Shown piece by piece: positions 8,886 to 32,012 of a stretch of 64,000 nucleotides of DNA. Both the position numbers and the translations under genes were made by a program. The notes beneath the pieces were generated by a model. That model searched no databases, was not told where the DNA came from, and was given only the letters and a program-made list of their open reading frames with translations. Position 1 is the first letter of the stretch. Every line of letters starts with the position of its first letter. The DNA is from Intestinimonas sp. (lineage in GTDB: Bacteria > Bacillota > Clostridia > Oscillospirales > Oscillospiraceae), in contig JALCSB010000001.1 in NCBI GenBank assembly GCA_022653075.1, positions 1 to 64,000 of the forward strand, in the 5' to 3' direction.

Positions 8886-9427
8886 AGCTAATGGACCTGC
8901 TGCCGCCCGCTTATGAAAATAATGTCACAATGGCAGAACTTCAGGGACTTTTGACGGATCGGGTGAGCACGCTGATCGCCGACCTGAGCGGGACCGTGGA
9001 TGAGTGCTTTCTTGAGACTGCGTCAAAGCTGCTCAGCCGGTATGAAAAAGTCTGCGGCGTCGATGTAGATGTCAGCAAGTCTGACACCTTCCGCCGCGAA
9101 ATCCTGAAAGCAAAGATCCGGGGGATCGGCACGGTAACCAAACAGCTCCTGATGGAGACGGCGGCAAGCTACAGTAACGGCGATGTGGAAGTGATTGAGA
9201 ACCCGGCGCATTACAGCCTTGTGGTGAAGTTTACCGGTACGCTGGGTATCCCGCCCAACCTGGACGGCCTGAAGGCCGCCGTCGAGGAGATTAAGCCCGC
9301 GCATCTGGCGTTTTCATTTCTCTACACCTATATGACCTGGGCGGCGTTCGAGTCGTACGCCCACACCTGGGCGGACTGGGACGCGCTGGGCCTCACCTGG
9401 GATGAATTCACGGTTTACAAGGAGTGA
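8882..9427 (+). CDS. DUF2313 tail protein (XkdU-like)
   Basis: MKLMDLLPPAYENNVTMAELQGLL..., overlaps end of baseplate J gene. Confidence 0.75.
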   Translation: MKLMDLLPPAYENNVTMAELQGLLTDRVSTLIADLSGTVDECFLETASKLLSRYEKVCGVDVDVSKSDTFRREILKAKIRGIGTVTKQLLMETAASYSNGDVEVIENPAHYSLVVKFTGTLGIPPNLDGLKAAVEEIKPAHLAFSFLYTYMTWAAFESYAHTWADWDALGLTWDEFTVYKE

Positions 9428-9432
9428 TCGGA

Positions 9433-10308
9433 ATGGGCAGCGCAAACAAGACGGCCAACTACGGGCTGAACCAGTGGCAGCCGAACGAATACCCCAAAAT
9501 GGAGGACTTCAACCGCGACAACGCCGCCATTGACGCGGCGCTTACGGCGGCGCGGTCGGCGGAGGAATACAACCCGGCGGGGACCTACGCCGTCGGGGAC
9601 TACTGCACCCATGGCGGCAAGCTGTACCGCTGCACCACGGCCATCCCGGCGGCGGAGGCGTGGACGGCGGGCCACTGGACGGAGACGATGGTTGCGGGGG
9701 AACTGCTGGCGATGATTGCGACACTGGCGGGGAAGGCGGACAACGTTACATCCACTATCTTATCATGGGACGATCTAATGGCGGCTAAATCTGGGGTATA
9801 TCTTGTAAGCAGTACAGTTACGGGTATGCCGGCAACCGGGGCGTGGTGGCATGTATGGCTGCTAACAGACAGTGGCAGTCAAAACAAGACTATCATCGCA
9901 AGAAAAGTATCTGCGGAAAACGGCCTTTGGACTCTGTGCATGGTAAACGGAGCGCTTGGAGAATGGTCTGGCCCATACGCCACCGCCACGCCGCCGACGG
10001 AGTACGATCTGCCGCTGGCAAGCGGATTTACTAATGTAGAACCATCAAAGTATAGTAAAGACCAGTTTGGACGTTGTCTGGTTGATTTTATTATTAGCGG
10101 AACGATAGCAGCAGATACAATTGTGGTTGTCGGAACATTACCATCTGGATATCGACCCGCTAAGACTATGCACACTGTTGGATATTCTTATGCGGACGGC
10201 GGCGCAACTATGGAATTATGGATTACCGCGAATGGAGAAATTACGGTGTATTCTCCGTCTGCGATCAGTAGTGCGGCAGGTCAAGTTTCCTTTGTCGCCG
10301 GTAATTAA
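9433..10308 (+). CDS. Tail fiber/receptor-binding protein
   Basis: Conserved N-terminus (NYGLNQWQPNEYPKMEDFNRDNAAIDAAL), carbohydrate-binding-like segment GTYAVGDYCTHGGKLYRCT, variable C-terminal half. Confidence 0.75.
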   Translation: MGSANKTANYGLNQWQPNEYPKMEDFNRDNAAIDAALTAARSAEEYNPAGTYAVGDYCTHGGKLYRCTTAIPAAEAWTAGHWTETMVAGELLAMIATLAGKADNVTSTILSWDDLMAAKSGVYLVSSTVTGMPATGAWWHVWLLTDSGSQNKTIIARKVSAENGLWTLCMVNGALGEWSGPYATATPPTEYDLPLASGFTNVEPSKYSKDQFGRCLVDFIISGTIAADTIVVVGTLPSGYRPAKTMHTVGYSYADGGATMELWITANGEITVYSPSAISSAAGQVSFVAGN

Positions 10309-10320
10309 GGGGGAACAACG

Positions 10321-10941
10321 ATGAATTATAAGCACTGCTGCGTTATCAACGCAGCCGGATACTATCAGACGCTTGTGCTGGTGCTGCTCCCGGATGGAGA
10401 GGACCAGCAAATTCAGGGGTACACGCTAAAAAGCGGAGAGTCTTTCATTGATACCGCGCCGCCCTCCGGCTTCGTCAAGCCCCGATGGGACGGCTCCGCG
10501 TGGGCAGAGGGCGCGACCGCCGAGGAAATCGCCGCGTGGGGGGCTAAGAATCCGGGACCCGACATAGCCTCTATCAGAGCAAAGCGTATTGCTTCCAGCA
10601 AGACGCAGCTGGCCGCCTACCTGCTGGCCCACCCCATGACGTGGACGGACGGCAGCCAGTACAGCGTGACGGCGGAGAAGCAGTCCCTCCTGACCAGCCA
10701 GCTGGCGCTGTACTCCGTGGCCGCCGCCGCCGGGGAAAGCTATCAGCTCCGGTGGAACACCACCGGCGGGGAATGCACGGAGTGGACCTATGAAAACCTC
10801 TCGGCGCTGGCGCTGGACATCGGGGCGTATGTGCAGCCGTTTGTCAGCTATCAGCAGGCGCGGGAGGTGGAGATCACCAACTGTACGACGGCGGCGGAAG
10901 TGGAGGCGATCACGATTGATTATGCGTCGGTTTCTGCGTAG
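10321..10941 (+). CDS. Phage tail fiber-associated hypothetical protein
   Basis: 206 aa ORF directly after the tail fiber gene. Confidence 0.5.
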   Translation: MNYKHCCVINAAGYYQTLVLVLLPDGEDQQIQGYTLKSGESFIDTAPPSGFVKPRWDGSAWAEGATAEEIAAWGAKNPGPDIASIRAKRIASSKTQLAAYLLAHPMTWTDGSQYSVTAEKQSLLTSQLALYSVAAAAGESYQLRWNTTGGECTEWTYENLSALALDIGAYVQPFVSYQQAREVEITNCTTAAEVEAITIDYASVSA

Positions 10942-11362
10942 CCTGGTTCTGTGGGTATTTGGCGGGGCGCTCTATTTCCTGATGGAAGTTTCCTGGAAAC
11001 TGGCCCGGGGGCATCCCAACGAAATCAGCTGGACGATGCTGGTGCTGGCGGCCGTCGTGAGCATCCCGCTGGACCAGGTGAACGAGCGCCTGCCCTGGGA
11101 TATGCCGCTGTGGCTGCAGGCCGTTCTGGGCGGACTGGGCATCACGGCGGCGGAGCTGGTGACCGGGCTGGTCCTGAACGTCCGGCTGGGACTGGGCGTG
11201 TGGGACTATACCGATATGCCGCTCAACCTGTGGGGGCAGATCTGCCTGCCCTACAGCCTGCTGTGGGTGCTGCTGGCCGGGGTGGGGATTGTGCTGTTCG
11301 ACTGGCTGCGGTACTGGCTGTACGGCGAGAGGCGGCCGGAATACATACTATTGAGGAAGTGA
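10922..11362 (+). CDS. Multi-TM membrane protein (ABC-transporter type IV-like)
   Basis: MRRFLRSLVLWVFGGALYFLMEVSWKL... several TM segments. Confidence 0.55.
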   Translation: MRRFLRSLVLWVFGGALYFLMEVSWKLARGHPNEISWTMLVLAAVVSIPLDQVNERLPWDMPLWLQAVLGGLGITAAELVTGLVLNVRLGLGVWDYTDMPLNLWGQICLPYSLLWVLLAGVGIVLFDWLRYWLYGERRPEYILLRK

Positions 11363-11366
11363 TTTT

Positions 11367-11597
11367 ATGGAGTGGACGGTGGTAACCGTGATCATCGCGC
11401 TGGTAGGGCTGGTGGGCGTGTTCGTCAAGGTGGGGGTGTCCATGTCCCGGTCCAGCCAGCGGCTTTCGGACAGCGTGGATCGGCTGGAAAAGAGCGTGGA
11501 CGGCCTCAAGGACGACAACCGGGACGACCACAAAGAGTTTTCGGACAAGCTGGATAACCACGAGCACCGGATCACGGTGCTGGAGACACAGAAATGA
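11367..11597 (+). CDS. Phage-encoded single-TM coiled-coil protein (holin/spanin-region)
   Basis: N-terminal TM then coiled coil SDSVDRLEKSVDGLKDDNRDDHKEFSDKLDNHEHRI. Confidence 0.55.
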   Translation: MEWTVVTVIIALVGLVGVFVKVGVSMSRSSQRLSDSVDRLEKSVDGLKDDNRDDHKEFSDKLDNHEHRITVLETQK

Positions 11598-11890
11598 GCG
11601 CGGTGAAACCGAAGCCCCGCCGGTGGCTCACGGCGTCCAAGCTGATTGCGTTCTGGATGCTGGCGCTCACCACGGTGGTGTCGGCGGCGACGCTGTACTT
11701 CATGCGGCTGTGCATCCTTCGGGATTTCACCGGGGCGCTGTACCCGCTGTCGGCGCTCATTACGCTGTGCCAGGCGGGAAACGCCGTGGTGCTCACGGCC
11801 ATCACGGGAAAGTCCAGGGCAGAGAACACAAAAGGCGGCATCACCTACGACGCCGCCATGAGTAATGCCTCCGACGAGGCGACTATTTGA
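11594..11890 (+). CDS. Small phage membrane protein, holin-like
   Basis: 98 aa, two predicted TM segments, lysis-cassette position. Confidence 0.45.
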   Translation: MSAVKPKPRRWLTASKLIAFWMLALTTVVSAATLYFMRLCILRDFTGALYPLSALITLCQAGNAVVLTAITGKSRAENTKGGITYDAAMSNASDEATI

Positions 11891-11903
11891 AAGGAGATTT
11901 TTT

Positions 11904-12167
11904 ATGAGTGCGATTCTGAGGAAACTGTCCAGCCGGAAGCTGTGGCTGGCCATCGCGGGTGTGGCCACCGGGATTGCCGTGGCGCTGGGAGCCAGCTCCG
12001 GCGACATAAGCACCGTGGCGGGCGCCGTGACGGCCATCGTATCGGTGGTAACGTACATCGTAACCGAGGGGAAAATTGACGCGGAGGGTGTCAAGACGGC
12101 GGTGGAGGCCGCGCAGAGCGCGGTGAGCGCCGTGACCGGGGAGAGTGAGAGCCATGCCGACAGCTAA
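11904..12167 (+). CDS. Phage holin-like protein
   Basis: MSAILRKLSSRKLWLAIAGVATGIAVALGASSGDISTVAGAVTAIVSVVTYIVTEG. Confidence 0.6.
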   Translation: MSAILRKLSSRKLWLAIAGVATGIAVALGASSGDISTVAGAVTAIVSVVTYIVTEGKIDAEGVKTAVEAAQSAVSAVTGESESHADS

Positions 12168-12852
12168 CGAAATCCTCGCGTGGGCGCGAAGCTACCTGGG
12201 CATGAAGGAATCCCCGGCAAACAGCAACAACGTCCCGTTTAACACCCGGTATTATGGACATGCCGTGTCAGGCTCCTCTTATCCTTGGTGCTGTGCGTTC
12301 CAGTGGTGCCTCTTCCAGGACATCGGCGCGCCGGAGCTGTTCTACGGCGGCGGGAAAACGGCGAGCTGCACCACGCTGTACCACTTCTACAAGAAGCATG
12401 GCCAGACGGTGGAGCCGTCGCGGGTCAAGCCGGGGGACCTGGTGTTTTTTAACTTTGACGGAAACGCCTCCGTTATGAACCACATCGGAATCTGCGAGAG
12501 CGCCGGGGGCGGTTCTGTGACCACCATCGACGGCAACACCGGCACCAGCAGCGAGGCCAACGGCGGCGAGGTCATGCGCCGAAAGCGGGCGCTCAAATAC
12601 GTGGGCGGCGCGGCCAGACCGGCCTATTATCAAAAGGAGGAAGAAGAGATTGTGACACAGGAACAGTTTGACAGCATGATGGACAACTATCTGGCCCACC
12701 GGGCGCAGATGGCCCCCGGCGACTGGAGTGCGGCGGAACGCGCCAAAGTGGAGGCGGCGGGAATCATCCAGGGTGGCGCCGGCACCGGCTACAAGTCCTT
12801 TGTGACCCGCGAGGAGCTGGCGGTTGTTGAGGCGAGAGCGCTCAAGCTGTAG
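12154..12852 (+). CDS. CHAP-domain endolysin
   Basis: NEILAWARSYLGMKESPANSNNVPFN...YPWCCAFQWCLF...VKPGDLVFFNFDG...NHIGICES. Confidence 0.85.
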   Translation: MPTANEILAWARSYLGMKESPANSNNVPFNTRYYGHAVSGSSYPWCCAFQWCLFQDIGAPELFYGGGKTASCTTLYHFYKKHGQTVEPSRVKPGDLVFFNFDGNASVMNHIGICESAGGGSVTTIDGNTGTSSEANGGEVMRRKRALKYVGGAARPAYYQKEEEEIVTQEQFDSMMDNYLAHRAQMAPGDWSAAERAKVEAAGIIQGGAGTGYKSFVTREELAVVEARALKL

Positions 12853-13037
12853 GGGTATAAACGAGCTTGGGCTTTTTGTTAAGAGAAGTACCCCATTACC
12901 CGAAACAACCAGGCGGTAGAGACGTTGTGTCCAAAATCGTGTCCATTTTTCTATTCTAAGCATGGAATATGCTTTCTTGTTACGAAATTCTGTTCTGAAA
13001 ACAAAAACCGCCGATCCATTGCGGCAGTAAACAAAAA

Positions 13038-13066
13038 GCCTAGAGCTATTATAGCCCTAGACTTTC
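13038..13066 (-). terminator. Terminator-like hairpin downstream of ssrA
   Basis: CCTAGAGCTAT-TATAGCCCTAG inverted repeat flanked by A-rich/T-rich ends. Confidence 0.5.
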
Positions 13067-13071
13067 AAAAT

Positions 13072-13423
13072 TGGTGGAGGCGAGGGGAGTTGAACCCCTG
13101 TCCGAAAACGCTTAAACGGAAATTTCTCCGGGCGCAGGCGGTTATTTAAATTCCCTTACTCAGGCGTGAGCCGTCACACTCAAGAGCTTGGTAGCTTCAT
13201 GATTCATGGTGCGCTCAAAGCTTTGCGCACACACGTGCACCACTCAAATGACGCCCTGTTCCGGCTCGTGGTCCCTCCGGACAGGACGGTAGCGAACTTA
13301 AGCCGCTACGAGTTCGTAATTGTTGTTGTTCTTTAATTTATAAAGAATGCCCATTTTCAGAAGGCTGGGCGCCTTCGCCCGCTATTCCCGCCTCCACGTC
13401 CCCGTCGAAGCCGGTACGCCCCC
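13072..13423 (-). ncRNA. ssrA: tmRNA
   Basis: Minus-strand 5' GGGGGCGUACCGGCUUCGACGGGGACGU... and 3' ...GGGGUUCAACUCCCCUCGCCUCCACCA; tag frame ...NNNNYELVAA-stop. Confidence 0.95.
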
Positions 13424-15673: not shown

Positions 15674-16255
15674 TTAGGCAGGACCCAAAACGAGAGGCTG
15701 GAGTTGCTCTCCGTGCAGCGCGGCGTCGATAGTGGCTGGAATCTGTAAAAAATCCGCCACCAGCGAGGTGGGTTTCCGGATTGGGTCGTCCTGACGGAAG
15801 GGGACGAAATAGAAATGTTTCCGGCACAGCAGTGTTCCCAGATTGGGCGCGGCTCCCGCCAATGCGTCATTGGTGGAGACGGCTATGATAACCGGGCCGC
15901 TGTTGCGCAGATGCGCCTTAACCGCCATGGTTACGGTGGAGTCGGCGATGCCGTGGGCCAGCTTTGCCAGAGTATTGCCGGTACAGGGGGCGATCACCAG
16001 AACATCCAGCAGATTCTGGGGGCCGATGGGTTCCGCTTTGGGGATGGTGTCGATAACACGGCGGTCACAGATGCGCTCCATCTCCCGTAGGTGTTCATGG
16101 GCCGGGCCGAACCGGGTGTCGGCAGAGGCACTGATTTCAGAGACAATGGGCACGACCGTTTCATATCGGGCGGCCACCTGTTCCAGTGCCGGAAAAACCT
16201 TGTCATACGTACAAAAAGAGCCGCAGAAGGCAAAGCCCACGCGTACAGGTTCCAT
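15674..16255 (-). CDS. dpaB: Dipicolinate synthase subunit B
   Basis: 193 aa flavoprotein-like: VRVGFAFCGSFCTYDKVFPALEQVA...VIAPCTGNTLAKLAHGIADSTVTMAVKAHLRN; starts 3 nt after the dpaA stop. Confidence 0.92.
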   Translation of the reverse strand: MEPVRVGFAFCGSFCTYDKVFPALEQVAARYETVVPIVSEISASADTRFGPAHEHLREMERICDRRVIDTIPKAEPIGPQNLLDVLVIAPCTGNTLAKLAHGIADSTVTMAVKAHLRNSGPVIIAVSTNDALAGAAPNLGTLLCRKHFYFVPFRQDDPIRKPTSLVADFLQIPATIDAALHGEQLQPLVLGPA

Positions 16256-16258: not shown

Positions 16259-16400
16259 TTACGCTCCTAACTCACTTAGCATGTTATAGATGGTGTCCCG
16301 GATAATTTTACCTGAGGTGACAGGCGCCACCTTGCCGGGGAGGGAGAGGGCCCAGATGACCCGTACCCCCAAACGGGACGCTGCCTCAAGGTCCACCCCG
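16259..16400 (-). CDS. dpaA: dpaA C-terminal segment (VDLEAASRLGVRVIWALSLPGKVAPVTSGKIIRDTIYNMLSELGA)
   Basis: Matches the expected C-terminal end of SpoVFA (LPG.VAP.T.G.I) and ends 3 nt before dpaB; homology starts exactly at core CCCCG 16396-16400. Confidence 0.92.
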
Positions 16401-16422
16401 GGGGACGCTGAATTACGATAAG
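16382..16422. other. attL of element 1
   Basis: TGCCTCAA arm (16382-16389) plus core CCCCG; joins dpaA C segment to element. Confidence 0.75.
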
Positions 16423-16493
16423 ACGCATGCCGGACGGACGAGCGCATAGAATCAAAGCGTAGGGGATGGCGACCCGGAAAGGGGGTATGGGAT

Positions 16494-16613
16494 ATGAAAA
16501 AAAAGCTGCATGTAATCGAAGTCCATGGGCGGGAAAAGGGACCGGAGCTGGAAGAGCTGCTGCTGACGCGGCTGCGGATGGAAATGGAGCAAAAAGGAAT
16601 ATGCCGAGAGTAG
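16494..16613 (+). CDS. 39-aa leader ORF overlapping the recombinase start
   Basis: AAAGGGGG upstream of ATG; MKKKLHVIEVHGREKGPELEELLLTRLRMEMEQKGICRE*; its end overlaps ATG at 16601. Confidence 0.5.
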   Translation: MKKKLHVIEVHGREKGPELEELLLTRLRMEMEQKGICRE

Positions 16614-18121
16614 GAGTCTATCTCCGTCTGTCCCGGGAGGACGAGGGCGGTGCACCGGAGTCCCAGAGTATTGAGAACCAGCGCAGAATTGTGGCGCGGT
16701 ACCTGGACGGGCAGAATTGGAAAGCGGAAGCAGAGTATGTGGACGACGGCTTTTCCGGCATGAAAACGGAGCGGCCCGCGTTTCAGCGCCTGCTGCGGGA
16801 TATCGAGGCGGGCCGTATCGACACCGTGATCACCAAGGATCTGTCCCGTCTGGGGCGGGATTATCTGGCCACGGGGGAATATCTTGAGCGTTACTTCCCG
16901 GAGCACGGGGTGCGATACATCGCGGTGGGCGACCGCATCGACACGGCGGGTGCGGAAGGGGTTGGATTCATGACACCGCTGCTGTCTGTATTTAACGACC
17001 TGTACGCCCGTGATATTTCCCGGAAAGTGCGCTCTGCGCTGGACAGCAAAAAAGTGGCCGGACAGTTTATTGGCGCCAGACCTCCCTATGGCTACCAGAA
17101 GGACGAACAGGCGCGGGGCCATCTGGTCCCTGACCGGGAGACCGCCCCGGTGGTCCGGTGGATGTTCCGGCGGTATGCCGCCGCTGGTTCGGTACTGGGC
17201 CTTGCCAAAGAACTGACCGAGGGGGGCGTGCCCACGCCGTCGGGGATCGGGAGCGGAATATGGAGCGACACCACGGTCCGGCGAATCCTTACAAATCCCA
17301 CCTATGCCGGACATTTGACTCAGAACCGGTCCCGCAAGGTGAGCCCAAAGTCGGAAAAACGGACCAGATTGCCCCGGAGCGACTGGATTGTGGTGGCGGG
17401 TACCCACGCGCCGCTGGTGACGAAGGAGGAATTCGACCGGGTACAGGAACTGTTGGACAGGCGCAGCTATCGGAGGGCCAACGGAAGGCGGCATGTGCTG
17501 TCCGGACTGGTTTTCTGTGCGGACTGTGGCAGTACCATGAGCTATGTGCGGGAGGGAGACCGGACCTATTTGGTGTGCCAGCAGTCCCGCCGTGGCGGGC
17601 GGCTGCATTTGTGCTCCTCCCACTGCGTACGGGAGGACGCGGTATTGAAGGCCCTCTGCGCCTGTCTGCGGACGATGACCTCCGGCCTGGAACCGGAGGA
17701 GCTGGCATCGCGGGCCGAAACGGGAGAACCGGCCCACCGAAAAGCACATCAGGCTGCCATTGAGCGGGAGTGGGAGCGCTGTGCGCGGACGCGCTGTCAT
17801 CTTTACCAGGACCGGTCGGAGGGGTTACTGGGGGAGGAAGAGTACCGGATGCTACATGCTGCGCTGGAGCGGGAAGAGGCGGAGCTGGAGCGAAAACGGT
17901 CGGCGCTGGCCGCTGAGTCTTCCTTCCAGCTGACGGCGGCAGAGAGACTGAAGCACCTGCAGGAGCTGCTGGAATTCTCGGAGCTGGATTTCGTTACGGC
18001 CCGCCTGCTGGTGGAGCGGGTTGTGGTTCACGCGGACCGTACCTTGGAGCTGTATACTCGATTCCGGCTCCCGGAGGCCCCAAAAGGGCCGGCCGGGACA
18101 AAAGTGTCCGGCCGGCCCTGA
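16601..18121 (+). CDS. Large serine recombinase 1
   Basis: 506 aa; catalytic resolvase domain VYLRLSRED...SQSIENQRRIV...ITKDLSRLGRDYLATGEYLE; recombinase domain and zinc ribbon CADCGSTMSYV. Confidence 0.95.
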   Translation: MPRVGVYLRLSREDEGGAPESQSIENQRRIVARYLDGQNWKAEAEYVDDGFSGMKTERPAFQRLLRDIEAGRIDTVITKDLSRLGRDYLATGEYLERYFPEHGVRYIAVGDRIDTAGAEGVGFMTPLLSVFNDLYARDISRKVRSALDSKKVAGQFIGARPPYGYQKDEQARGHLVPDRETAPVVRWMFRRYAAAGSVLGLAKELTEGGVPTPSGIGSGIWSDTTVRRILTNPTYAGHLTQNRSRKVSPKSEKRTRLPRSDWIVVAGTHAPLVTKEEFDRVQELLDRRSYRRANGRRHVLSGLVFCADCGSTMSYVREGDRTYLVCQQSRRGGRLHLCSSHCVREDAVLKALCACLRTMTSGLEPEELASRAETGEPAHRKAHQAAIEREWERCARTRCHLYQDRSEGLLGEEEYRMLHAALEREEAELERKRSALAAESSFQLTAAERLKHLQELLEFSELDFVTARLLVERVVVHADRTLELYTRFRLPEAPKGPAGTKVSGRP

Positions 18122-18149
18122 ACTGGATGGAATTTTTCCGGACCTGCCT

Positions 18150-18983
18150 CTACAGGGACAGGTCCTCGTCGGTGACCTCTCCCTCGGCCACCCAATTGGT
18201 ATCACCAATAAGAAACAGACCGGTTACCGCAGCTCCCTCCCGCTGTACCCGCACCCGAAGAGTTCCGCCCGGCACGATCAAGTGGACGGTATCGGAGGCA
18301 AGGCCTTTGGCGGCGAGGACTGCGCTGGTGGAACCGGAGCCGGTCCCGCAGGCCAGCGTGAAGTTCTCCACCCCGCGTTCATAGGTGAGCAGACGGACAG
18401 CGCCGTTCTCCCAATCATAGAAATTTACATTTGCGCCCTTCCGAAAGGCCGGATGGTGGCGGAGCGCCATGCCCAGCGGCCGCAGCTCCGCCTGCGTTTT
18501 TCCCGCCAGACCGGGCATGGGCACCACGGCATGGGGGAGTCCGGGACTCCCCAGTTCCACATAGGCGCAGTCATACGTCACGCCGTTTACATCCACAGGA
18601 TAATCCGGGATCAGGACGGTGGGCGGATTCAGGCGGACTTCATACTCCCGGCGGCTGTGCCGCCAGGCCAGTACGTTGCCCGACATGGTCTCCATGCACA
18701 CCCGGTCCCCGGACAGGCCGCTTTCCAGCGCAAAACGGGCCAGACAGCGCGCGCCGTTGCCGCACATCTCGCCTTCGCTCCCGTCGGCGTTATAGAACCG
18801 CATTTGTAAGTCTCCGCCCTGGCGGGGAAAATCCACTGCCATGAGCGCGTCTGCGCCGATAGAAAGCCGGCGGGTACACAGCCGCCGCGCCAGTGTGGGA
18901 AGGACCGATTCCGGAACGCCCTCGCTTCTGTTGTCAATGATGATAAAATCGTTCCCGGTCCCCTGCATTTTCACAAAATGCAT
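18150..18983 (-). CDS. dapF: Diaminopimelate epimerase
   Basis: MQGTGNDFIIIDN; YNADGSEGEMCGNGARC; LACGTGSGSTSAVLA. Confidence 0.97.
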   Translation of the reverse strand: MHFVKMQGTGNDFIIIDNRSEGVPESVLPTLARRLCTRRLSIGADALMAVDFPRQGGDLQMRFYNADGSEGEMCGNGARCLARFALESGLSGDRVCMETMSGNVLAWRHSRREYEVRLNPPTVLIPDYPVDVNGVTYDCAYVELGSPGLPHAVVPMPGLAGKTQAELRPLGMALRHHPAFRKGANVNFYDWENGAVRLLTYERGVENFTLACGTGSGSTSAVLAAKGLASDTVHLIVPGGTLRVRVQREGAAVTGLFLIGDTNWVAEGEVTDEDLSL

Positions 18984-19003
18984 GTGCGCGCCCCTCTTCC
19001 ATG

Positions 19004-20299
19004 CTATTTGAGCGAATCCGGGATAACCGCGCAGGTCAGCAGATCATCATAGGTCTGCCGCCGGACGATGAGCTCCGGGCGCCCTTCCTTTACAAGTATG
19101 ACGGCGGGAATGGGATTATGATTGTAGTTGCTGGCCATGGAATAGCCGTAGGCGCCGGTGGAAAAGACGGCGAAAATGTCGCCGCTTCTGGCAGGGGGAA
19201 GCATTACATCCCGCATGAGAAGATCGCCCGACTCACAGCACTTGCCGCATACGGTGACCTGCTCGGTGGCGGGTTCGTCGGCGCGGCCTGCCAGCATACC
19301 CTTGTAAACGGCCTGGTAGAGTGCGGGCCGAATGTTGTCCGTCATGCCGCCATCCACCGAAATGTACTTGCGCACACCGGGGATTTCCTTAATAGAACCC
19401 ACGGTATAGAGTGTAATGCCCGCCTCGCCTACAATACTGCGGCCCGGCTCGATAACCACTGCGGGGCGTTCTATGCCCTCGTCGGCGCAGAACTGATTGA
19501 GGCGGGTCATGACGGGGTCAAGGAAATAGGAATAGGGGCGGCGCTCTTCCCCGGTGTAACGGATGCCGTAACCGCCGCCGATATTCAGTTCCCGGACAGA
19601 GAAACCAAACCGCTTTCGGGTTTCGCGGACAAGCCCGAGCGCCACCTCCAGCGCCTGAAGATAAGGCGTGTTGTCGAACAGCTGGGAGCCGACATGGTAG
19701 TGGAACCCCAGAAAGTTCACAAACTCGGAGCGGATGGCGGCCTCCACGGCGGGATAGATGACGGTATCCTCCAGGGGGATACCGAATTTAGAGTCCTTTT
19801 TGCCAGTGACGATATAGTCGTGGGTGCTGGCCTTTACACCGGGTGTGATCCGGTAGAGAACATTCATCCGTACTCCCTTTTTGCGGCAGATGGACTCCAG
19901 AAGAGGCAACTCCTGCAGGCCGTCGATAATGATGCGGCCGATTCCGGCATCCACGGCCAGCTCCAGTTCAGAGGGCAGCTTATTGTTGCCGTTAAATTCA
20001 ATGCGTTCCGGAGGAAAACCGGCGCGGAGGGCGGTATACAGTTCGCCGCCCGATACTACGTCGATGCACATGCCCTCCCGCATAACCAGACGCAGCATGG
20101 CCGGGGTGCAGAACGCCTTACAGGCGTAGGCCACCCGCGTGTTGTAATATTTCTCTAGAAAACAAGACCGAAGCTCGGAAAAACGGGACACGATCTCCGT
20201 TTCAGAAAAAATGTAGAGTGGGGTGCCGTACTGCGCCGCCAGTGCGGTCGTATCGCAGCCGTCAAAAAAAAGAATGCCGTTCCTGATTTCCTTTACCAT
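19004..20299 (-). CDS. lysA: Diaminopimelate decarboxylase
   Basis: VAYACKAFCTPAMLRL; GFHYHVGSQLFD; LNIGGGYGIRYT; EPGRSIVGEAG; CGKCCESGDLL. Confidence 0.97.
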   Translation of the reverse strand: MVKEIRNGILFFDGCDTTALAAQYGTPLYIFSETEIVSRFSELRSCFLEKYYNTRVAYACKAFCTPAMLRLVMREGMCIDVVSGGELYTALRAGFPPERIEFNGNNKLPSELELAVDAGIGRIIIDGLQELPLLESICRKKGVRMNVLYRITPGVKASTHDYIVTGKKDSKFGIPLEDTVIYPAVEAAIRSEFVNFLGFHYHVGSQLFDNTPYLQALEVALGLVRETRKRFGFSVRELNIGGGYGIRYTGEERRPYSYFLDPVMTRLNQFCADEGIERPAVVIEPGRSIVGEAGITLYTVGSIKEIPGVRKYISVDGGMTDNIRPALYQAVYKGMLAGRADEPATEQVTVCGKCCESGDLLMRDVMLPPARSGDIFAVFSTGAYGYSMASNYNHNPIPAVILVKEGRPELIVRRQTYDDLLTCAVIPDSLK

Positions 20300-20483
20300 A
20301 TAATCTGGGCTCCTTTTTGGTGGGAATGATGAATTGGTTCTCGCGGTCACATGGCCTTGATTTTGCCTTACACGATCCTCCACAAAAACGGCGATCATGA
20401 CCACTTTGCGGCTATTATAGCACAGGTCGGCAGGCCCTGTAAAAAATTTCGGGGAAAAAACTTGACGCTGGGTCCGGCGGGGC

Positions 20484-20524
20484 AGCGTGCAAATCCGCAC
20501 TCCGCCCCGCCGGGCTTTGAGGCA
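20484..20524. other. attR of element 1
   Basis: Core CCCCG 20505-20509 plus TTGAGGCA arm (20517-20524); joins element to dpaA middle segment. Confidence 0.75.
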
Positions 20525-20850
20525 AGGTCAATGACTAGTGTGTCGGGCCTCAGCTCGGCAAGACGGTCCTCATTAAGCACGCGGGCGGGTACGGTGTTAA
20601 TCAGCAGGTCATAGCTGCAGAGCCAGCCATCCAGCGTGGAGATCTGTTCCGCGCAGCAGCCGTAGGCCTCTGCCCAGACTAGATCAGACCATTTTCGGGC
20701 CGCCACGGTGACACGCGCGCCCAGCGCGTGAAGGCGATGGGCCACCAGCTTTCCCAAACGTCCATAGCCCAGTACCATGGCCCGGCAGCCGTGCAGGGTG
20801 ATGGGCAGTTCCTCCATGGCGATTTGAACGGCCCCTTCCGCAGTAGGTAC
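20505..20850 (-). CDS. dpaA: dpaA middle segment (Rossmann core)
   Basis: TVPTAEGAVQIAMEELPITLHGCRAMVLGYGRLGKLVAHRLHALGARVTVAAR...LLINTVPARVLNEDRLAELRPDTLVIDLASKPGG, SpoVFA-like; flanked on both sides by att cores. Confidence 0.95.
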
Positions 20851-20866
20851 CGTCTTAGCGATATCG
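20834..20866. other. attL of element 2
   Basis: CGCAGTA arm plus GGTAC core. Confidence 0.75.
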
Positions 20867-20874
20867 GTACGCTG

Positions 20875-20904
20875 TACTATTTGCCCCCATCCGCCCCATA
20901 TATA
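20875..20904 (+). promoter_or_regulatory. Sigma-E-like promoter upstream of recombinase 2
   Basis: TACTATT-N15-CATATATA, resembling KMATATT-N14/15-CATACAMT. Confidence 0.4.
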
Positions 20905-20955
20905 TGGAGGGAAAACGGGACCACCGGCGGGTGGTCGGAGAAAGGGGACGGATTC

Positions 20956-22536
20956 ATGCTGCGAGTCGCGGCTTATTGCAGGGTATCCACGGACAAGGAG
21001 GACCAGCAGCACTCATTGGAGAGCCAGCTGCGCTATTTTAACGATTACATCGGTGCCCGGGCGGACTGGGCGCTGGCGGGAATTTACGCGGACGAGGGAC
21101 TCAGCGGGACGGGTACCAAAAAACGAGTGGCCTTTCGACAGATGATGACGGATGCCAGGGAGGGCAGGCTTGACCTGATTCTAACCAAGGAGGTGTCCCG
21201 TTTTGCGAGAAACACGGTGGATGCGCTGGAGAATACCCGTACGCTCCGGCGGTACGGCGTGGGTGTGGTGTTTCTGAGTGACAATATTGATACCCGGGAA
21301 AACGACGGAGAACTGCGCCTGACCATCATGGCCAGCATTGCCCAGGAGGAATCCCGCCGGACCTCCCAGCGGGTAAAATGGGGGCAGAAACGCCGCATGG
21401 AGCAGGGTGTGGTGTTCGGCAACAACAGTATCTACGGGTTCGATCTGCACGGGGGGCAGCTCTGCGTTGTGGAGCGGGAGGCCGAAGTTGTCCGCGCCAT
21501 CTACCGGAAGTATGTGATCGAGGGAAAGGGTACCCATGTGATCGCCCGCGAGCTGTATGAGGCCGGTGTGGACCCGCCTGCTTCGCCGTGTGGACGGTGG
21601 TCACCGGCCATGGTGCGGCGGGTGCTGAGAAACGAAAAATACTGTGGTGACTTGGTTCAGAAAAAGGAGATTACGGTGGATTTTCTTACCCATCAGCGGC
21701 AGGAGAACCGGGGCGAGGAGGAACTGGTCTGCCTGCGGGACCACCACGAAGCGATTCTTCCCCGTGAGATGTGGGAGCAGGCGCAGGAGCAATTGCGGCG
21801 CAGGCGCGGCGGACGCAGTGGGACAGGCCAACGGTGCTGGTGTTCCGGAAAGGTGCGCTGCGGCATCTGCGGCGGGCGCTTTATCCTGCGTACCGCGCGG
21901 CGGCCCAACGGAGATCAATACCGCGGCTGGATCTGTAGCAGTCATGTGTATCGGAGCGGGAAACCGCCCTGTTCAGCCGGTATGGTGAATGAGCGGACGT
22001 TGGAGGCCTGCGTGCAATTTGTGTTCCGGCTGCTGCTACCGGACCCGGAGGAGACCGCGAGGCGTCTGGAGGAGGAGCTGGATGGGCTGCCCGATGAAAG
22101 AGACCGTGAGCCGCGGATCCGGGCGGAGAAACGCCTTCAAAAGCTCCAGCAGAAGAGAGCGCGGATGATGGACGCGTATTTTGACGGGACGATTCCGAAG
22201 GAGGAGATGAAGTCCCTGCGGGACCGATATGATCGGGAACGGGAGGGGCTGGAGTCCAGGCTGCGGAACTTTGACCGGAGCCGTGAGCCGGACGAGGTCA
22301 GAAAGAAGTGGGGAACTGCCGTCCGGGACAGCCTGAACGGATCAGGAGAGGTTTTTGCCACGGCGGTGCGGGAGATCACGGCCTGTGAAGCGGCGCTGCG
22401 GATCTCCATGGAAGGGCTTTCCGGACAGGTGGAGCTGCACTATGCAACCTCCGGCCGGCGGACGTCCTACCGGACCGACATCCTGGGATGGCGCCTGTTG
22501 GACAGAGCCCATCCTGCGAAAGATCCGGCAGAATAA
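20956..22536 (+). CDS. Large serine recombinase 2
   Basis: 526 aa; MLRVAAYCRVSTDKEDQQHSLESQLRYF...ILTKEVSRFARNTVDALENTR...zinc ribbon RCGICGGRF; good RBS. Confidence 0.95.
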   Translation: MLRVAAYCRVSTDKEDQQHSLESQLRYFNDYIGARADWALAGIYADEGLSGTGTKKRVAFRQMMTDAREGRLDLILTKEVSRFARNTVDALENTRTLRRYGVGVVFLSDNIDTRENDGELRLTIMASIAQEESRRTSQRVKWGQKRRMEQGVVFGNNSIYGFDLHGGQLCVVEREAEVVRAIYRKYVIEGKGTHVIARELYEAGVDPPASPCGRWSPAMVRRVLRNEKYCGDLVQKKEITVDFLTHQRQENRGEEELVCLRDHHEAILPREMWEQAQEQLRRRRGGRSGTGQRCWCSGKVRCGICGGRFILRTARRPNGDQYRGWICSSHVYRSGKPPCSAGMVNERTLEACVQFVFRLLLPDPEETARRLEEELDGLPDERDREPRIRAEKRLQKLQQKRARMMDAYFDGTIPKEEMKSLRDRYDREREGLESRLRNFDRSREPDEVRKKWGTAVRDSLNGSGEVFATAVREITACEAALRISMEGLSGQVELHYATSGRRTSYRTDILGWRLLDRAHPAKDPAE

Positions 22537-22542
22537 TAAATA

Positions 22543-22580
22543 GCTCGGGCCGGAAATCAAATCTCCGGTCCGAGCTTTTC
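22543..22580 (+). terminator. Terminator after recombinase 2
   Basis: GCTCGGGCCGGA-loop-TCCGGTCCGAGC TTTTC. Confidence 0.75.
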
Positions 22581-22691
22581 TAATGAAAAGGCGGGAAATA
22601 TTTTTCAAAAAACTGAAAAATATAACCAAAAAGTAACCAACATATTTTATACTGTACCTACAGAGCGAAACACACGAAAGGGGATAAGCGA

Positions 22692-23132
22692 ATGGACGGT
22701 ATTTCACAGCGCTTTGTCCGGTATGAGACGCGGATTACGTTTATTCATGTCTACTCTTATGAAAACCGAAATCCCAAGGGGGTCCTTTCCAACCCCTTTT
22801 ATCCCAAAGATCAGGCATTTGACGGACTGATTCAATTACTGAATCTCATTGAGAATATGCTCAATGCGCTTGGGCTTTCTCAGCAGAATGTGGAGCAGCG
22901 GGTATTTCATCAGATGAAAAAAACGTTTGCAAAGTCGCAGCCGGCCCCCGCACAGCCAACGAATGGAAAACCGATAGCCTCTTTCCAGATCAGTGTTCTG
23001 TTTCGGCAGAACGCCAGTTGGCAGGGAAGCGTTCGCTGGATCGACTGCAACCTCGAGGCACAGTTTCGCAGTGTTCTGGAGTTAATCGGCCTGCTGGACA
23101 GCGCGCTGTCCGTGCAGAAGCCCCCGCTTTGA
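22692..23132 (+). CDS. Hypothetical protein in element 2
   Basis: 146 aa ORF with upstream GAAAGGGG RBS; no family recognised. Confidence 0.55.
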   Translation: MDGISQRFVRYETRITFIHVYSYENRNPKGVLSNPFYPKDQAFDGLIQLLNLIENMLNALGLSQQNVEQRVFHQMKKTFAKSQPAPAQPTNGKPIASFQISVLFRQNASWQGSVRWIDCNLEAQFRSVLELIGLLDSALSVQKPPL

Positions 23133-23195
23133 GATTAAGAAGGAGCCAGTTTGCATTCTCCGTATATACTGTGATTTTGAATGTTCATAACATAA

Positions 23196-23236
23196 AAAAG
23201 TGTCACAGGAATCGGCCTGTGACAGCTTTTTTATAG
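23196..23236. terminator. Bidirectional terminator
   Basis: AAAAAAGTGTCACAGG-loop-CCTGTGACAGCTTTTTT between convergent genes. Confidence 0.8.
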
Positions 23237-23241
23237 ACAAT

Positions 23242-24240
23242 TCAGTGTGAAGTGATTTCACCGGATAGGCTGCGGACAAAGAGACTGTGAATACGCTCCG
23301 GATCTTCGGTTTGCCCTAAAACCCACATGAGCTTGGTGACGGCGGCCTCGGTGGTCATATCGTATCCTTGAATCACACCTTGAGCCAAGGCTTTCTGTCC
23401 GGCCTGGTAAAGAGAAAAATTGCTGCTCTCGTACAGGCACTGGCTGCATACGACTACCGTCATGCCGTGCTGCACGGCCTTGTGGAGTTTGGCAATCAGA
23501 TTGCGCCGGATAAAGTGAAGCCCACCGGCACCGAAAGCCTCAATAACCACGCCGCGGTAATGCATCCGCAGCAGCATATCAAAAATTTCCGGGTTAAGGC
23601 CCGGCGTCAGTTTAATAAGAAACACATCCCGGCACAAAGCGTCCCGCAGGGCAGGTGTTTTTTCCCGAAAAGGCGGCAGCGCGGAAGAATCAAGCCGGAG
23701 CCCGCCGCCGTCCACCTGAGCGACCAGCGGCCAGTTCACGCTTTCAAAGGCGTCAAAACCGGTGGTGCGGGTTTTAACGGCGCGGCAGCCCAAGATGACC
23801 TTACGGTTAAAGGCCAGGAAAATACCGGGTGTTTCGGTGGCGGCCATGGCAAAGGCCACGCGGAGATTTTCCAGCCCGTCGCTCAGGGGGTGCTCAATGG
23901 GAAGCTGAGAGCCGGTAAGTACGACTGGAATTTGCAGGCCGGGGAGCATAAAGGAGAGGACAGAGGAGGTATAGGCCATGGTGTCAGTACCATGGGTGAT
24001 CACCACGCCGTCAAAAGAAGAGGCGGCGGCGAACACATGCCGGGCAATCAGATGCCATTCCTCCGGCTGGATATTGGAACTGTCCAGGTGGAGAATATCA
24101 CGCACGGTGACCTTGTAGCTGTCCAGAAGCCCGGTCAGCCGTTTGATCAGCGTACCGCCGTCCATACCGGGCGCCAGTCCCTCCGAAGTGGGGCGGGAGG
24201 CAATGGTGCCGCCCGTGGTTAAAAGCAAAATATGTTTCAT
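23242..24240 (-). CDS. ansA: L-asparaginase
   Basis: ILLLTTGGTIAS; VVITHGTDTMAYTSSVLSFML. Confidence 0.92.
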   Translation of the reverse strand: MKHILLLTTGGTIASRPTSEGLAPGMDGGTLIKRLTGLLDSYKVTVRDILHLDSSNIQPEEWHLIARHVFAAASSFDGVVITHGTDTMAYTSSVLSFMLPGLQIPVVLTGSQLPIEHPLSDGLENLRVAFAMAATETPGIFLAFNRKVILGCRAVKTRTTGFDAFESVNWPLVAQVDGGGLRLDSSALPPFREKTPALRDALCRDVFLIKLTPGLNPEIFDMLLRMHYRGVVIEAFGAGGLHFIRRNLIAKLHKAVQHGMTVVVCSQCLYESSNFSLYQAGQKALAQGVIQGYDMTTEAAVTKLMWVLGQTEDPERIHSLFVRSLSGEITSH

Positions 24241-24257
24241 TATGTACTCCGGCATTA

Positions 24258-24809
24258 TTAGGAATCGTCTTCCTCGAAGGTGAGAGTAAGACGGGCAAAG
24301 TCCACCATGGTGGCCTTAAGCTGACTTAAAAATTTTTCAGGTGGGAGACATTCCGGCCCGGTAAGCCAGCGGATAATGGCGGCAAGCAGCGCGTCGCTGA
24401 AGAACGTGATATAGAACTGCGGGTCGTCGATGTCCTGAAACAGGTCCTGTGTCAGCAAAAAGAGAAAGGGTTCCATCGTCTCGGAAAAGTAGGAGCGGAA
24501 GGAATTTTGTCCTTGAATTTCCAGTGCGTTGCGGTAAAAATCACGCTCGCTGTAAAAGTACCGGCAGATATCGGTGATAAGGCCCCAACTGGATAAGTAG
24601 TCTTTTTTCTGAATCGTCTGGATGAACTCGGTATAAAACACCCAATTGACCAAATCATGTTTATCCTTAAAATGATAATAGAAACTCTTGCGACTCATCC
24701 CGCAGGTTTCGCAGATGTCGCCCACACTGATTTTGGAAAAGGGCTGCTGTGCCATAAGTTTTTTCATCGTTCTGGCAAGCGCCTGTTTGGTGATGTTGGA
24801 ATCCGGCAT
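24258..24809 (-). CDS. TetR family transcriptional regulator
   Basis: HTH TKQALARTMKKLMAQQPFSKISVGDICETCGMSRKSFYYHFKDKHDLVNWVF. Confidence 0.85.
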   Translation of the reverse strand: MPDSNITKQALARTMKKLMAQQPFSKISVGDICETCGMSRKSFYYHFKDKHDLVNWVFYTEFIQTIQKKDYLSSWGLITDICRYFYSERDFYRNALEIQGQNSFRSYFSETMEPFLFLLTQDLFQDIDDPQFYITFFSDALLAAIIRWLTGPECLPPEKFLSQLKATMVDFARLTLTFEEDDS

Positions 24810-24976
24810 GTGCTCACCTCACTGCTCTGCGTCCCACATTTTGTATAAGACAGTATAGCATATTTTCATTGGCAGGGCAAGCATGCTTGGAATATTGTGA
24901 CAGAATGGAAGAAAAGAAGAGAAAAAAACCAAGGTTTCAAGAAAAAAATTAAAAAGAATTTGAAGAGGTTAGAACC

Positions 24977-26293
24977 TTACCCGCAGCCGGGCACGGTCTC
25001 CCCCAGCAGAAAGTGTTCCGACGAACCGGTGATACGGACGGTGCGGATTTGATTGTGCAACTGGGTACCGGGAGCGCGGACGCAGATATAATTCGGCGCA
25101 TGGCCCTGCCACAGCCCGCCTTTTTCCTCTTCAAACAGAACGGGTAAGGCTTTACCGACCCAACTCCGCAGCCAGACGCGCTCCAGTTCCGCGGCGACGG
25201 CGGCGGCCCGGTGGGCGCGGTCTTCCTTTACGGCGCGGGGGATCTGATTGAGCTGTGCCCCTGCCGACGTGCCGGCGCGGCGGGAGTAAGGAAAAATGTG
25301 CATGGCGGAGAAGGCACAGCGCCGTACAAAGGCCAGTGTGGCCTGAAATTCCGCTTCGGTCTCACCGGGAAAGCCGACGATCAAATCGGTGGTAATGCCG
25401 GGACGATCGAAGAAGCTTCGAAGAAGCTCTACGGATTCCAGATACCGGGCCGTGTCGTACTTCCGATTCATGCGGCACAGGACGCTGTCGCAGCCGCTCT
25501 GCATGGACAGATGGAAGTGGGGGCACAAATTGGAAAGACCGGCGGCACGGTGGCAGAATTCCGGTGTGATGGTACGCGGTTCCAGGGAGCCGAGACGGAC
25601 CCGCAGGTCCGGTACCGCGGCGCAGACGGTTTCTACCAGGTCGATCAGAGAAAGACCGGCGTGCAGGTCCTGGCCCCAGGAGGAGATTTCGATGCCGGTC
25701 AGCACCAGTTCCCGGTATCCGTCCTCCGCCAGCCTGCGGGCCTGCGCGGCCGCGTGTTCCGCGTCCAGAGAGCGGACGGGCCCGCGGGCATAGGGGATGA
25801 TACAGTAGGAGCAGAAATTCACGCAGCCGTCTTCCACCTTTAACATGGCGCGAGTCCGGCCTTCCAGTCCGTGGGCGGGCAGCCGCTCAAACACGCGGCG
25901 TTCCATGCTGTTATCCAGAACGCGGCGGGGGACGCCGTGCCCCGCACTCCCGCGGTCGGCGCACAGTGCCTCCAATTCATCCAAAAATGCCATACGCCCG
26001 CCGGTTCCGGAGATCAGGTCCACGCCTAATTCCGCCACCGCTTCCGGGGAGGTCTGGGCATAACAGCCGCAGACGGCCACCACGGCACCGGGGCTGCGCC
26101 TCCGTGCCTGACGGATTGCCTGGCGGGATTTCCGGTCGCTGACGGCGGTTACGGTACAGGTATTAATAATGTAGACATCCGCCGGGCGGTCAAAGGGAAC
26201 CAGAGTGTGGCCACGGGCGGCGAGCGCGCGTTCCAGCGCGGCGGTTTCATATTGATTGACCTTGCAGCCCAGGGTGTGAATGGCAATTTGCAT
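24977..26293 (-). CDS. mtaB: tRNA (t6A37) methylthiotransferase
   Basis: MQIAIHTLGCKVNQYETAALE; radical-SAM CXXXCXXC: EDGCVNFCSYCIIPYARGPVRS. Confidence 0.92.
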   Translation of the reverse strand: MQIAIHTLGCKVNQYETAALERALAARGHTLVPFDRPADVYIINTCTVTAVSDRKSRQAIRQARRRSPGAVVAVCGCYAQTSPEAVAELGVDLISGTGGRMAFLDELEALCADRGSAGHGVPRRVLDNSMERRVFERLPAHGLEGRTRAMLKVEDGCVNFCSYCIIPYARGPVRSLDAEHAAAQARRLAEDGYRELVLTGIEISSWGQDLHAGLSLIDLVETVCAAVPDLRVRLGSLEPRTITPEFCHRAAGLSNLCPHFHLSMQSGCDSVLCRMNRKYDTARYLESVELLRSFFDRPGITTDLIVGFPGETEAEFQATLAFVRRCAFSAMHIFPYSRRAGTSAGAQLNQIPRAVKEDRAHRAAAVAAELERVWLRSWVGKALPVLFEEEKGGLWQGHAPNYICVRAPGTQLHNQIRTVRITGSSEHFLLGETVPGCG

Positions 26294-26499
26294 GGTGATA
26301 ACCTCACAAAAGGAGAAACGCCGTCCCTCAGTTCTGGTGAAAATGGCTGAAATTCAGAAAAGAAACGGTGTTCTTGATTGTATTTTTCGCGCTCCTTGCT
26401 ATAATTAAAAGCATTGAATCCCTCTTATGCGGCCGGTCGCTCGGAAGATGCCGGCCGCGGGAACGGGATTATTATAACATGCGATAGGAGGGATTGACA

Positions 26500-26736
26500 A
26501 TGACCAGCTTTTCGATCATGCTGGAATCGATCGGTGACATTAAGGAGTTTGTCAATGCAGCCAGCCGTCTGGACTGCGAAGTCGACGTGCGCAGCGGCCG
26601 TTACCTGGTGGACGGAAAATCCATAATGGGACTGTTTTCCATTGATCTGTCTGAGCCTGTTACCACGGAGGTTCACGGCACGAGCGCCCAGGGTGAGATG
26701 TTCCGTCAGGCCATTGCCCGCTTTGTAAAGGAGTAA
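26500..26736 (+). CDS. HPr-fold protein lacking the active-site His
   Basis: 78 aa with DGKSIMGLFSIDLSEPVTTEVHG motif but no GLHARP. Confidence 0.7.
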   Translation: MTSFSIMLESIGDIKEFVNAASRLDCEVDVRSGRYLVDGKSIMGLFSIDLSEPVTTEVHGTSAQGEMFRQAIARFVKE

Positions 26737-26739
26737 TTC

Positions 26740-27354
26740 GTGGCATATCATTTTTTCGCAATGATTTCCCGCATGCGCTATATCAGCCGGTGGGGGCTGA
26801 TGCGGAATACCTTTCGTGAAAATATTCAGGAGCATTCTCATATGGTGGCTGTGATTGCCCACGCGCTGGCTGTGATCCGCCGGGACGTTTATGGCGGAAG
26901 CATTGACCCGGGTGCGGTGGCGGTCGCCGCTTTATACCATGACGCGCCGGAAATTCTGACTGGCGATCTGCCCACACCCATCAAATATTACAACCCGGAG
27001 ATTCGGGATGCCTACAAAAAGGTAGAGAGCGTGTCCGCGCGAACACTCCTATCGCTGCTTCCAGCCGCTCTTCGCCCGGCTTACGAGCCGCTGCTGGAGG
27101 AGAACCCGGAGAGTGAAACCTATGCCTTGGTGAAAGCGGCGGATAAACTTTCGGCCTATGTAAAATGTATGGAGGAATTGGAAGCCGGGAACCATGAGTT
27201 TGATCAGGCGGCCCGGCAGACGCTGGCCGCTCTTAAGGCATCTCCGCTGCCTGAGGTACATTATTTTATGGATGAGTTTGTACCCGGTTTTGGCCTTACC
27301 CTGGATGAACTCCAGTCTTCTCATATGAAAAACAGAAAGGATGATCGAGCATGA
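26740..27354 (+). CDS. HD-domain 5'-nucleotidase (YfbR-like)
   Basis: [43 protein letters not shown]...[18 protein letters not shown]. Confidence 0.85.
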
Positions 27355-27623
27355 CAAGAGCCATTGTAACCGTACTGGGGAAGGACCGGGTAGGTATTAT
27401 GTCCTTTGCCTGTACCTTGCTGGCACAGCACAATATCAACATCCTGGATATCAGTCAGACCATTTTGCAGGATTATTTTACCATGGTCATGCTGGTGGAC
27501 GCCACCGGCTGCGACCTGCCCTTTGCGGAACTGGCGACTCTGCTGGAGAACCAGGGGAAAACACGGGACCTCGCGATCCACATTCAGCGCGAGGATCTGT
27601 TCAACGCCATGCACCGGATTTGA
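27351..27623 (+). CDS. ACT domain protein (UPF0237)
   Basis: [50 protein letters not shown]. Confidence 0.9.
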
Positions 27624-27637
27624 GAGGGGCGGGAAGA

Positions 27638-28996
27638 ATGATCAATACCAATGAAATTATGGATACCATCCATATGATCGACCAGCAGCATCTGGATGTA
27701 CGGACCATCACCATGGGTATCTCTCTTCTGGACTGCGCGGACGCCAATGCCGACACCGCCTGCCGCAAAATCTATGATAAGATCTGCCGGAAAGCGGAGC
27801 ACCTGGTCCGGACCGGCTGCGACATCGAGCGGGAGTTTGGCATTCCCATTGTGCATAAGCGGATTTCCGTCACGCCCATCGCGCTGGTGGCCGGCGCGTC
27901 GGAGGCGGAGGATTATGTCCCGTTTGCCGCAGCGCTGGACCGGGCTGCACAGACCTGCGGCGTTAACTTTATCGGCGGGTTCTCCGCGCTGGTGCAGAAA
28001 GGATTCACGCCCGGGGACCGCCGGCTTATCGCCGCCATACCGGAGGCGCTGGCCACCACTGAGCTGGTCTGTTCCTCGGTGAATGTGGGTTCCACAAAGG
28101 CTGGCATCAACATGGACGCGGTGGCACAGATGGGGCAAACCATTAAAAAATGCGCCGAGCTGACCAAAGAGCGGGGCGGTTTCGGCTGCGCCAAACTGGT
28201 GGTGTTCTGCAATGCCGTGGAGGACAACCCCTTTATGGCTGGCGCGTTCCATGGCGTGGGCGAGGGAGACTGTGTCATTAACGTGGGCGTTTCCGGCCCG
28301 GGTGTGGTCTACCACGCGTTGCAGAGTGTAAAGGGGAGGCCCTTTGACGACGTGGCGGAGACCATTAAAAAGACCGCTTTCCGCATTACCAGGATGGGCC
28401 AGCTGGTGGCTCAGGAGGCATCCCGCCGGCTGGATGTGCCGTTCGGCATTGTGGACCTGTCTCTGGCGCCCACGCCCGCCGTGGGCGATTCGGTGGCCCG
28501 CATTCTGGAGGAAATGGGTTTGGAAGTTTGCGGAACGCACGGCACCACTGCGGCGCTTGCTCTGCTCAACGATGCGGTCAAAAAGGGCGGTGTCATGGCG
28601 TCCTCCCATGTGGGCGGACTGTCCGGCGCCTTTATCCCCGTCTCCGAGGATGAGGGAATGATCGCCGCCGCCCGTTCCGGCGCGCTGCAGCTGGACAAGC
28701 TGGAGGTTATGACCTGCGTGTGCTCCGTTGGCCTGGATATGATCGCCGTCCCCGGTGACACCTCCGCCGAAACCATCTCCGCCATTATTGCGGATGAGAC
28801 CGCCATCGGCATGGTAAATACCAAGACCACCGCCGTGCGTATCATTCCCGCACCTGGCAAGCAGGTGGGGGACACAGTGGAATTCGGCGGCCTGCTGGGT
28901 TCCGCCCCCGTTATGCCCGTACACTCCTTTAGCAGCGAGGCGTTTGTCCATCGCGGAGGGCGTATCCCTGCTCCAATGCAGAGCCTGAAGAACTAA
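27638..28996 (+). CDS. PFL/UPF0210 family protein
   Basis: [27 protein letters not shown]...; pairs with upstream ACT gene as usual. Confidence 0.88.
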
Positions 28997-29008
28997 AAGC
29001 CGTTTACA

Positions 29009-29036
29009 GCCCCGGAAACGCCAAGTTTCCGGGGCG
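29009..29036 (+). terminator. Terminator hairpin
   Basis: GCCCCGGAAAC-GCCAA-GTTTCCGGGGC. Confidence 0.6.
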
Positions 29037-31994: not shown

Positions 31995-32012
31995 GTTGGA
32001 GAATCTTATCCC

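Follow-up and report, generated by a model that had tools for sequence, protein, structure and literature searches.

The dpaA (spoVFA) gene of this genome is split into three open segments by two recombinase elements. With a probability of roughly 0.85, the smaller one, element 1, is a skin-like element without phage genes that sits at a fixed attB in dpaA, would be excised in the mother cell and appears to have captured a housekeeping operon. The genome analysed is a 2.05-Mb draft in 28 contigs (97.7% complete), and the window, the whole stretch of DNA examined here, spans the initial 64 kb of contig 1. The dpaA segments lie on the minus strand, with an intact dpaB beyond them:

15674 to 16255, minus strand: dpaB, dipicolinate synthase subunit B, an intact open reading frame with 60-72% identity to the dpaA-adjacent dpaB of congeners.
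16259 to 16400, minus strand: C-terminal segment of dpaA, ending in the core CCCCG (16396-16400), which is the junction with element 1; placed by tblastn and junction comparison.
20505 to 20850, minus strand: middle segment of dpaA, running from CCCCG (20505-20509) to GGTAC (20846-20850); placed by tblastn and junction comparison.
36284 to 36681, minus strand: N-terminal segment of dpaA (PF16924, E 5.7e-25), with a TTG start codon likely at 36681.

Deletion in silico of the intervening 4,109 bp and 15,438 bp joins the three segments into a single frame of 294 codons. The resulting 294-aa DpaA aligns end to end with the uninterrupted DpaA of seven congeners at about 45-68% identity. dpaA is expressed in the mother cell. 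The dN/dS values for the gene are 0.07-0.20 overall, including pairs in which both members are interrupted. Two such pairs of sister species gave 0.068 (G089-G222) and 0.163 (G191-G396), the window gene gave 0.11-0.20 against congeners, and an intact pair gave 0.115. Judged by these ratios, interrupted dpaA is still under purifying selection, and a gene that is split yet selected implies regular reconstitution. Genes of the sigE and sigG types are present in the genome. The sigK gene is itself split (model residues 1-119 and 109-226; G000:C4:133835-141469, L286), and the roughly 7 kb within it contain a serine recombinase and an amidohydrolase-like gene along with further genes of non-phage type, making this a third skin-like element. 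Since sigK is also split together with a recombinase, the organism probably performs at least three such excisions.

Element 1 contains the following features:

16410 to 16422, minus strand: att arm on the C-segment side, CTTATCGTAATTC, a degenerate form of the family arm CTTATCCAAAT.
16423 to 16452, plus strand: candidate sigma-E-like promoter 5' of the small ORF and R1, ACGCATG-N15-CATAGAAT, with 10 of 15 consensus matches.
16494 to 16613, plus strand: 39-aa ORF, candidate recombination directionality factor, overlapping the start of R1; a similar ORF occurs in most site B elements.
16601 to 18121, plus strand: R1, a 506-aa large serine recombinase of the site B type with Resolvase, Recombinase and Zn-ribbon domains (Pfam).
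18086 to 18118, no strand assigned: GC-rich hairpin where the convergent R1 and dapF genes meet, GGGCCGGCCGG...CCGGCCGGCCC, read from the sequence.
18150 to 18983, minus strand: dapF, diaminopimelate epimerase (TIGR00652, 194 bits; cut-off 114.65).
19004 to 20299, minus strand: lysA, diaminopimelate decarboxylase (TIGR01048, 450 bits; cut-off 297.9).
20414 to 20443, minus strand: sigma-A-like promoter of lysA-dapF, TTTACA-N18-TATAAT with TG, 11 of 12 matches.
20484 to 20496, minus strand: att arm on the middle-segment side, GGATTTGCACGCT, degenerate.

The common core CCCCG at 16396-16400 and 20505-20509 sets the period of the element at 4,109 bp, and the extent given in the initial annotation, from the C-terminal to the middle segment of dpaA, is thus borne out. 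Its inventory of a recombinase, intact dapF and lysA and no phage genes also holds, except that these are not the only genes, because a conserved 39-aa ORF is present as well; the element carries nothing else. The hairpin is likely a bidirectional terminator, and it is missing from the output of our terminator scan.

At site B, a GGGG core lies within the Gly-Gly codons of the motif SKPGG and is common to the junctions. We compared the C-segment-side arm with those of 10 or more site B elements. The ends of these elements carry inverted arms, CCTTATCCAAAT ... ATTTGGATAAGG, which are clearest in Clostridium viride; in the window they can still be recognised but are degenerate. Symmetric arms about a short core resemble serine-integrase attP sites, as in gin. 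Because the cores are direct repeats, the expected product of recombination is excision. The predicted joint of the 4,109-bp circle, GCACTCCGCCCCGGGGGACGCTG, had no match among IMG/VR viral contigs, a collection that is uninformative on excision.

We searched with the joined DpaA by tblastn and found the same two breakpoints in other genomes of the family. At least 10 genomes have an interruption at site A, about residue 139 (ANAVP|TAEG), and at least 13 have one at site B, about residue 249 (SKPGG|VD). Site A junctions have a CC core in a Pro codon, flanked in several genomes by inverted GTGTCC-type arms. The type of recombinase tracks the site: R2-type enzymes (35-53% identity) occupy site A and R1-type enzymes (44-56%) occupy site B. 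Across 401 genomes of the family, all 13 R1 homologues with at least about 45% identity are located at site B of dpaA, whereas none at about 44% and below was found beside dpaA in the flanks inspected. A scan of named genomes placed site B interruptions in C. viride DSM 6836 (interrupted at both sites), Pseudoflavonifractor gallinarum DSM 107456, Flavonifractor sp. An82, Anaerotruncus massiliensis AT3 and several MAGs. An assembly artefact is very unlikely because isolates show identical junctions, and chance is excluded because two breakpoints recur across many genomes with matching recombinase types. The initial annotation had named, as a finding that would count against it, dpaA fragments in relatives at unrelated positions and without recombinases; we found the same codon interrupted, alongside cognate recombinases. 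Congeners with uninterrupted dpaA, which it had suggested comparing, do not contain the element, and dapF and lysA are both missing from that locus.

We considered the possibility that these are dead insertions, with dpaA a pseudogene in a lineage that is losing sporulation and the recombinases inactive remnants. The genome is small (2.05 Mb, compared to about 3 Mb in two congeners), and the degenerate att arms of the window element also fit decay. However, all three dpaA segments remain open and can be joined in a single frame, dpaA is under purifying selection in interrupted lineages, and many species are interrupted at the same sites. The genome also has an intact dpaB, genes for sigE and sigG, and the split sigK. 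The recombinases also appear to be maintained, with dN/dS of 0.21-0.23, indicating purifying selection, and R1 retains the residues that are invariant across its family. We therefore regard decay as an unlikely explanation.

Serine integrases usually require a directionality factor. In most site B elements, an ORF of about 40 codons lies directly upstream of the recombinase gene, usually overlapping it, and a GPTLEELL-like core is common among the products. These ORFs show coding-type substitution (dN/dS 0.18-0.26), were not found in a few site B elements and matched no Pfam family. As the sole accessory gene of element 1, the ORF is the best candidate for a directionality factor; CD1234, a known small accessory factor, has 53 aa. 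Several site A recombinases follow a different, SHOCT-like small ORF (best E 3e-4, below the cut-off; for example L043 before 10705 and L053 before 7442), and R2 of the window has no such ORF upstream.

Across 16 non-redundant regions upstream of site B recombinases, matches to the sigma-E consensus were enriched over shuffled sequences (z about 5.7-5.9), and the sigma-A consensus showed no enrichment (z < 1). Control recombinases located outside dpaA (n = 15 sequences) scored z = 3.0 for sigma-E-like sites, and the enrichment is therefore suggestive rather than proof. Some of the R1-like recombinases outside dpaA (L107-L123) may split other sporulation genes.

The cargo of element 1 was described in the initial annotation as vegetatively needed, and we examined both genes for further copies. 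A PF01678 search of the genome detected dapF only in element 1, and no Ddh bypass (PF16654) was found in this genome. From pathway knowledge, dapF should therefore be needed for meso-DAP. Because the genome is a draft, a second dapF could sit in the missing 2%. The description fits lysA less well: the genome has another, divergent gene of the LysA type at G000:C8:3478-4686 (TIGR01048 E 4e-79, under the cut-off), and lysA is less critical than dapF for that reason. The divergent type is the only one seen in genomes such as G022. The sigma-A-like promoter upstream of lysA is consistent with use of lysA-dapF during growth, with about one site of this 11/12 class expected by chance within element 1. 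Rfam detected no lysine riboswitch upstream of lysA and matched only tmRNA. The tmRNA gene (13072-13423, minus strand) lies at the end of a prophage-like gene run (924-13423), for which it is a likely integration site.

The two cargo genes differ in their affinities. The window dapF is about 61% identical to that of G078, where it is also adjacent to lysA, and about 33% identical to those of congeners (tree support 100/98), which marks it as a foreign or relict dapF that is now the only one found and lies within element 1. The lysA of element 1 groups with the lysA of congeners. The dapF tree could suggest a generally mobile integrative element that acquired dapF-lysA by horizontal transfer, used dpaA as a convenient target and would be excised in growing cells too. 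Its patchy distribution could suggest the same, since within the genus site B is interrupted in only 1 of 11 genomes, that of the window. However, at 4.1 kb the element has no transfer genes, and its close recombinase homologues are confined to dpaA: in collections of phages, plasmids and viral contigs, every full-length relative of R1 falls below about 45% identity, and most fall below 38%. Moreover, sister species keep the same cargo, lysA clusters with congeneric genes, and an excision that takes the sole dapF with it should kill growing cells. General mobility is thus very unlikely.

Other site B elements carry different host genes. Thiamine genes (thiF, thiH and the thiE/tenI type) occur in two Flavonifractor genomes and mgsA with an rRNA methyltransferase gene in two Pseudoflavonifractor genomes, and an ABC transporter is also among the sibling cargo. 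The element in MAG L151 encodes a protein that reads as a glutamine-dependent NAD synthetase; no other nadE match in that genome rises above the cut-off. The same cargo is retained between the site B elements of sister species. As read from these gene contents, the pattern is one of ordinary host operons captured, not of a design specific to lysine. dapF, lysA and dpaAB are members of one branched pathway. It is scarcely credible that the cargo is adaptive and excision serves as a metabolic switch, in which loss of dapF and lysA closes the meso-DAP/lysine branch as a rebuilt dpaA opens the way from the common precursor to DPA; the genes of these branches do occupy one excision unit, but in other genomes the cargo at site B is unrelated (for example thiamine genes, mgsA, NAD synthetase and transporters), the circle and pre-made enzyme would persist, meso-DAP is still required for cortex synthesis, and the other LysA-type gene lies elsewhere in the genome.

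Element 2, which splits dpaA at site A, also carries host genes:

20846 to 36283, no strand assigned: element 2, 15,438 bp, delimited by GGTAC repeated at 20846 and 36284.
20956 to 22536, plus strand: R2, a large serine recombinase of the site A type, from its recombinase domains (Pfam) and site A homologues.
29108 to 35023, plus strand: mutS2, HPr, uvrC, rsmD and coaD (NCBIfam equivalogs).
34526 to 35023, plus strand: coaD (TIGR01510), the sole copy in the genome.

The mtaB gene likewise lies inside element 2. In relatives the gene block is found elsewhere, and several of these genomes have it next to genes that here occupy window positions 43356-45935. This difference in placement indicates that the mutS2-HPr-uvrC-rsmD-coaD block was moved into dpaA. 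The site A element of G022 is far larger than element 2, at about 43 kb (G022:C2:92788-135866).

Both purifying selection on dpaA and the sigma-E-like sites that precede the recombinase operon fit excision in the mother cell. We infer that R1 would be expressed from a sigma-E-type mother-cell promoter and, probably aided by the coupled protein of about 40 aa, would recombine the directly repeated attL and attR during sporulation, releasing the 4,109-bp circle. R2 would likewise excise element 2, making dpaA whole and permitting DPA synthesis. The forespore chromosome would be left intact and retain its elements, so that element 1 and the captured lysA-dapF operon, presumably read from its own vegetative promoter, would be inherited. 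Housekeeping genes would be tolerable as cargo because excision would be limited to the terminal cell, and the mother cell would keep DapF for a time because enzyme and circle would persist. With the sole dapF aboard, element 1 should no longer be losable from the vegetative line. We raise tentatively a further step of hostage-taking: capture of sole essential genes (dapF, coaD) may have made both elements incurable from the germ line, and with each mother cell cutting about 19.5 kb from dpaA, the division between germline and soma might be locked in.

Elements of this kind are known from sigK, spoVFB, spoVR, spsM, gerE, kamA and yabG (PMC6957869, PMC5025042, PMC10747680, PMC4191935). We found no report of a split dpaA/spoVFA in the searchable literature, a body that excludes subscription papers. 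Element 1 resembles skin in sigK (SpoIVCA/Skr in Bacillus subtilis, CD1231/CD1234 in Clostridioides difficile) in its internal serine recombinase, split mother-cell gene and direct-repeat att sites (PMC6957869, PMC5025042). A small accessory protein, needed for skin excision and a candidate here, and the forespore copy, kept in skin and probably here too, extend the likeness (PMC6957869, PMC5025042). In contrast to skin, element 1 targets dpaA, measures 4.1 kb, has no phage genes, carries lysA-dapF, and uses a different recombinase family and att site. The vfbin element of Bacillus weihenstephanensis is excised during sporulation and splits spoVFB (dpaB), the gene for the other dipicolinate synthase subunit (PMC6957869, PMC4191935). 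However, vfbin is prophage-like and lies in a Bacillus dpaB, whereas here dpaA is split twice, in an Oscillospiraceae lineage, by elements with host-gene cargo.

The gin element in gerE of Bacillus cereus ATCC10987 (GirC/GirX) is also non-phage and pairs a serine recombinase with an accessory factor, for which element 1 has a candidate (PMC5595907). It is a low-GC island of 31 genes with three recombinases, in contrast to the one recombinase and core biosynthetic operon of element 1 (PMC5595907). Having one recombinase and lying in dpaA, element 1 falls outside the gin (GirABC/GirX) family, and without phage genes it falls outside the prophage-like intervening elements. It does have its own site-specific recombinase, direct-repeat att sites whose recombination would restore the frame, and a split host gene still under selection. 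Structurally it is therefore skin-like, and gin is its nearest counterpart as regards the lack of phage genes. The heterocyst elements of cyanobacteria (nifD, fdxN, hupL) are likewise excised by programme in a terminal cell and vary in gene content, but the organisms and recombinases are different, and the available part of the source reports no essential single-copy housekeeping cargo (PMC4874684). Among sporulation excision elements, the accessible portions of the cited literature describe prophage-like elements or islands in which most genes are accessory or uncharacterised. The novel features here are the target dpaA, two recombinase families at two fixed sites, compactness, and a single-copy cargo that is apparently essential.

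Apparently essential single-copy cargo in elements whose programmed removal would be needed to rebuild a spore gene makes sense only under strict confinement of excision to the mother cell, and the system would let the separation of germline and soma be tested directly in bacteria. It also shows a route to permanence for an excisable element, through capture of an essential gene. For a widespread gut family, the analysis names two families of att sites in dpaA and yields a candidate directionality factor of about 40 aa together with new site-specific recombinases with defined att sites.
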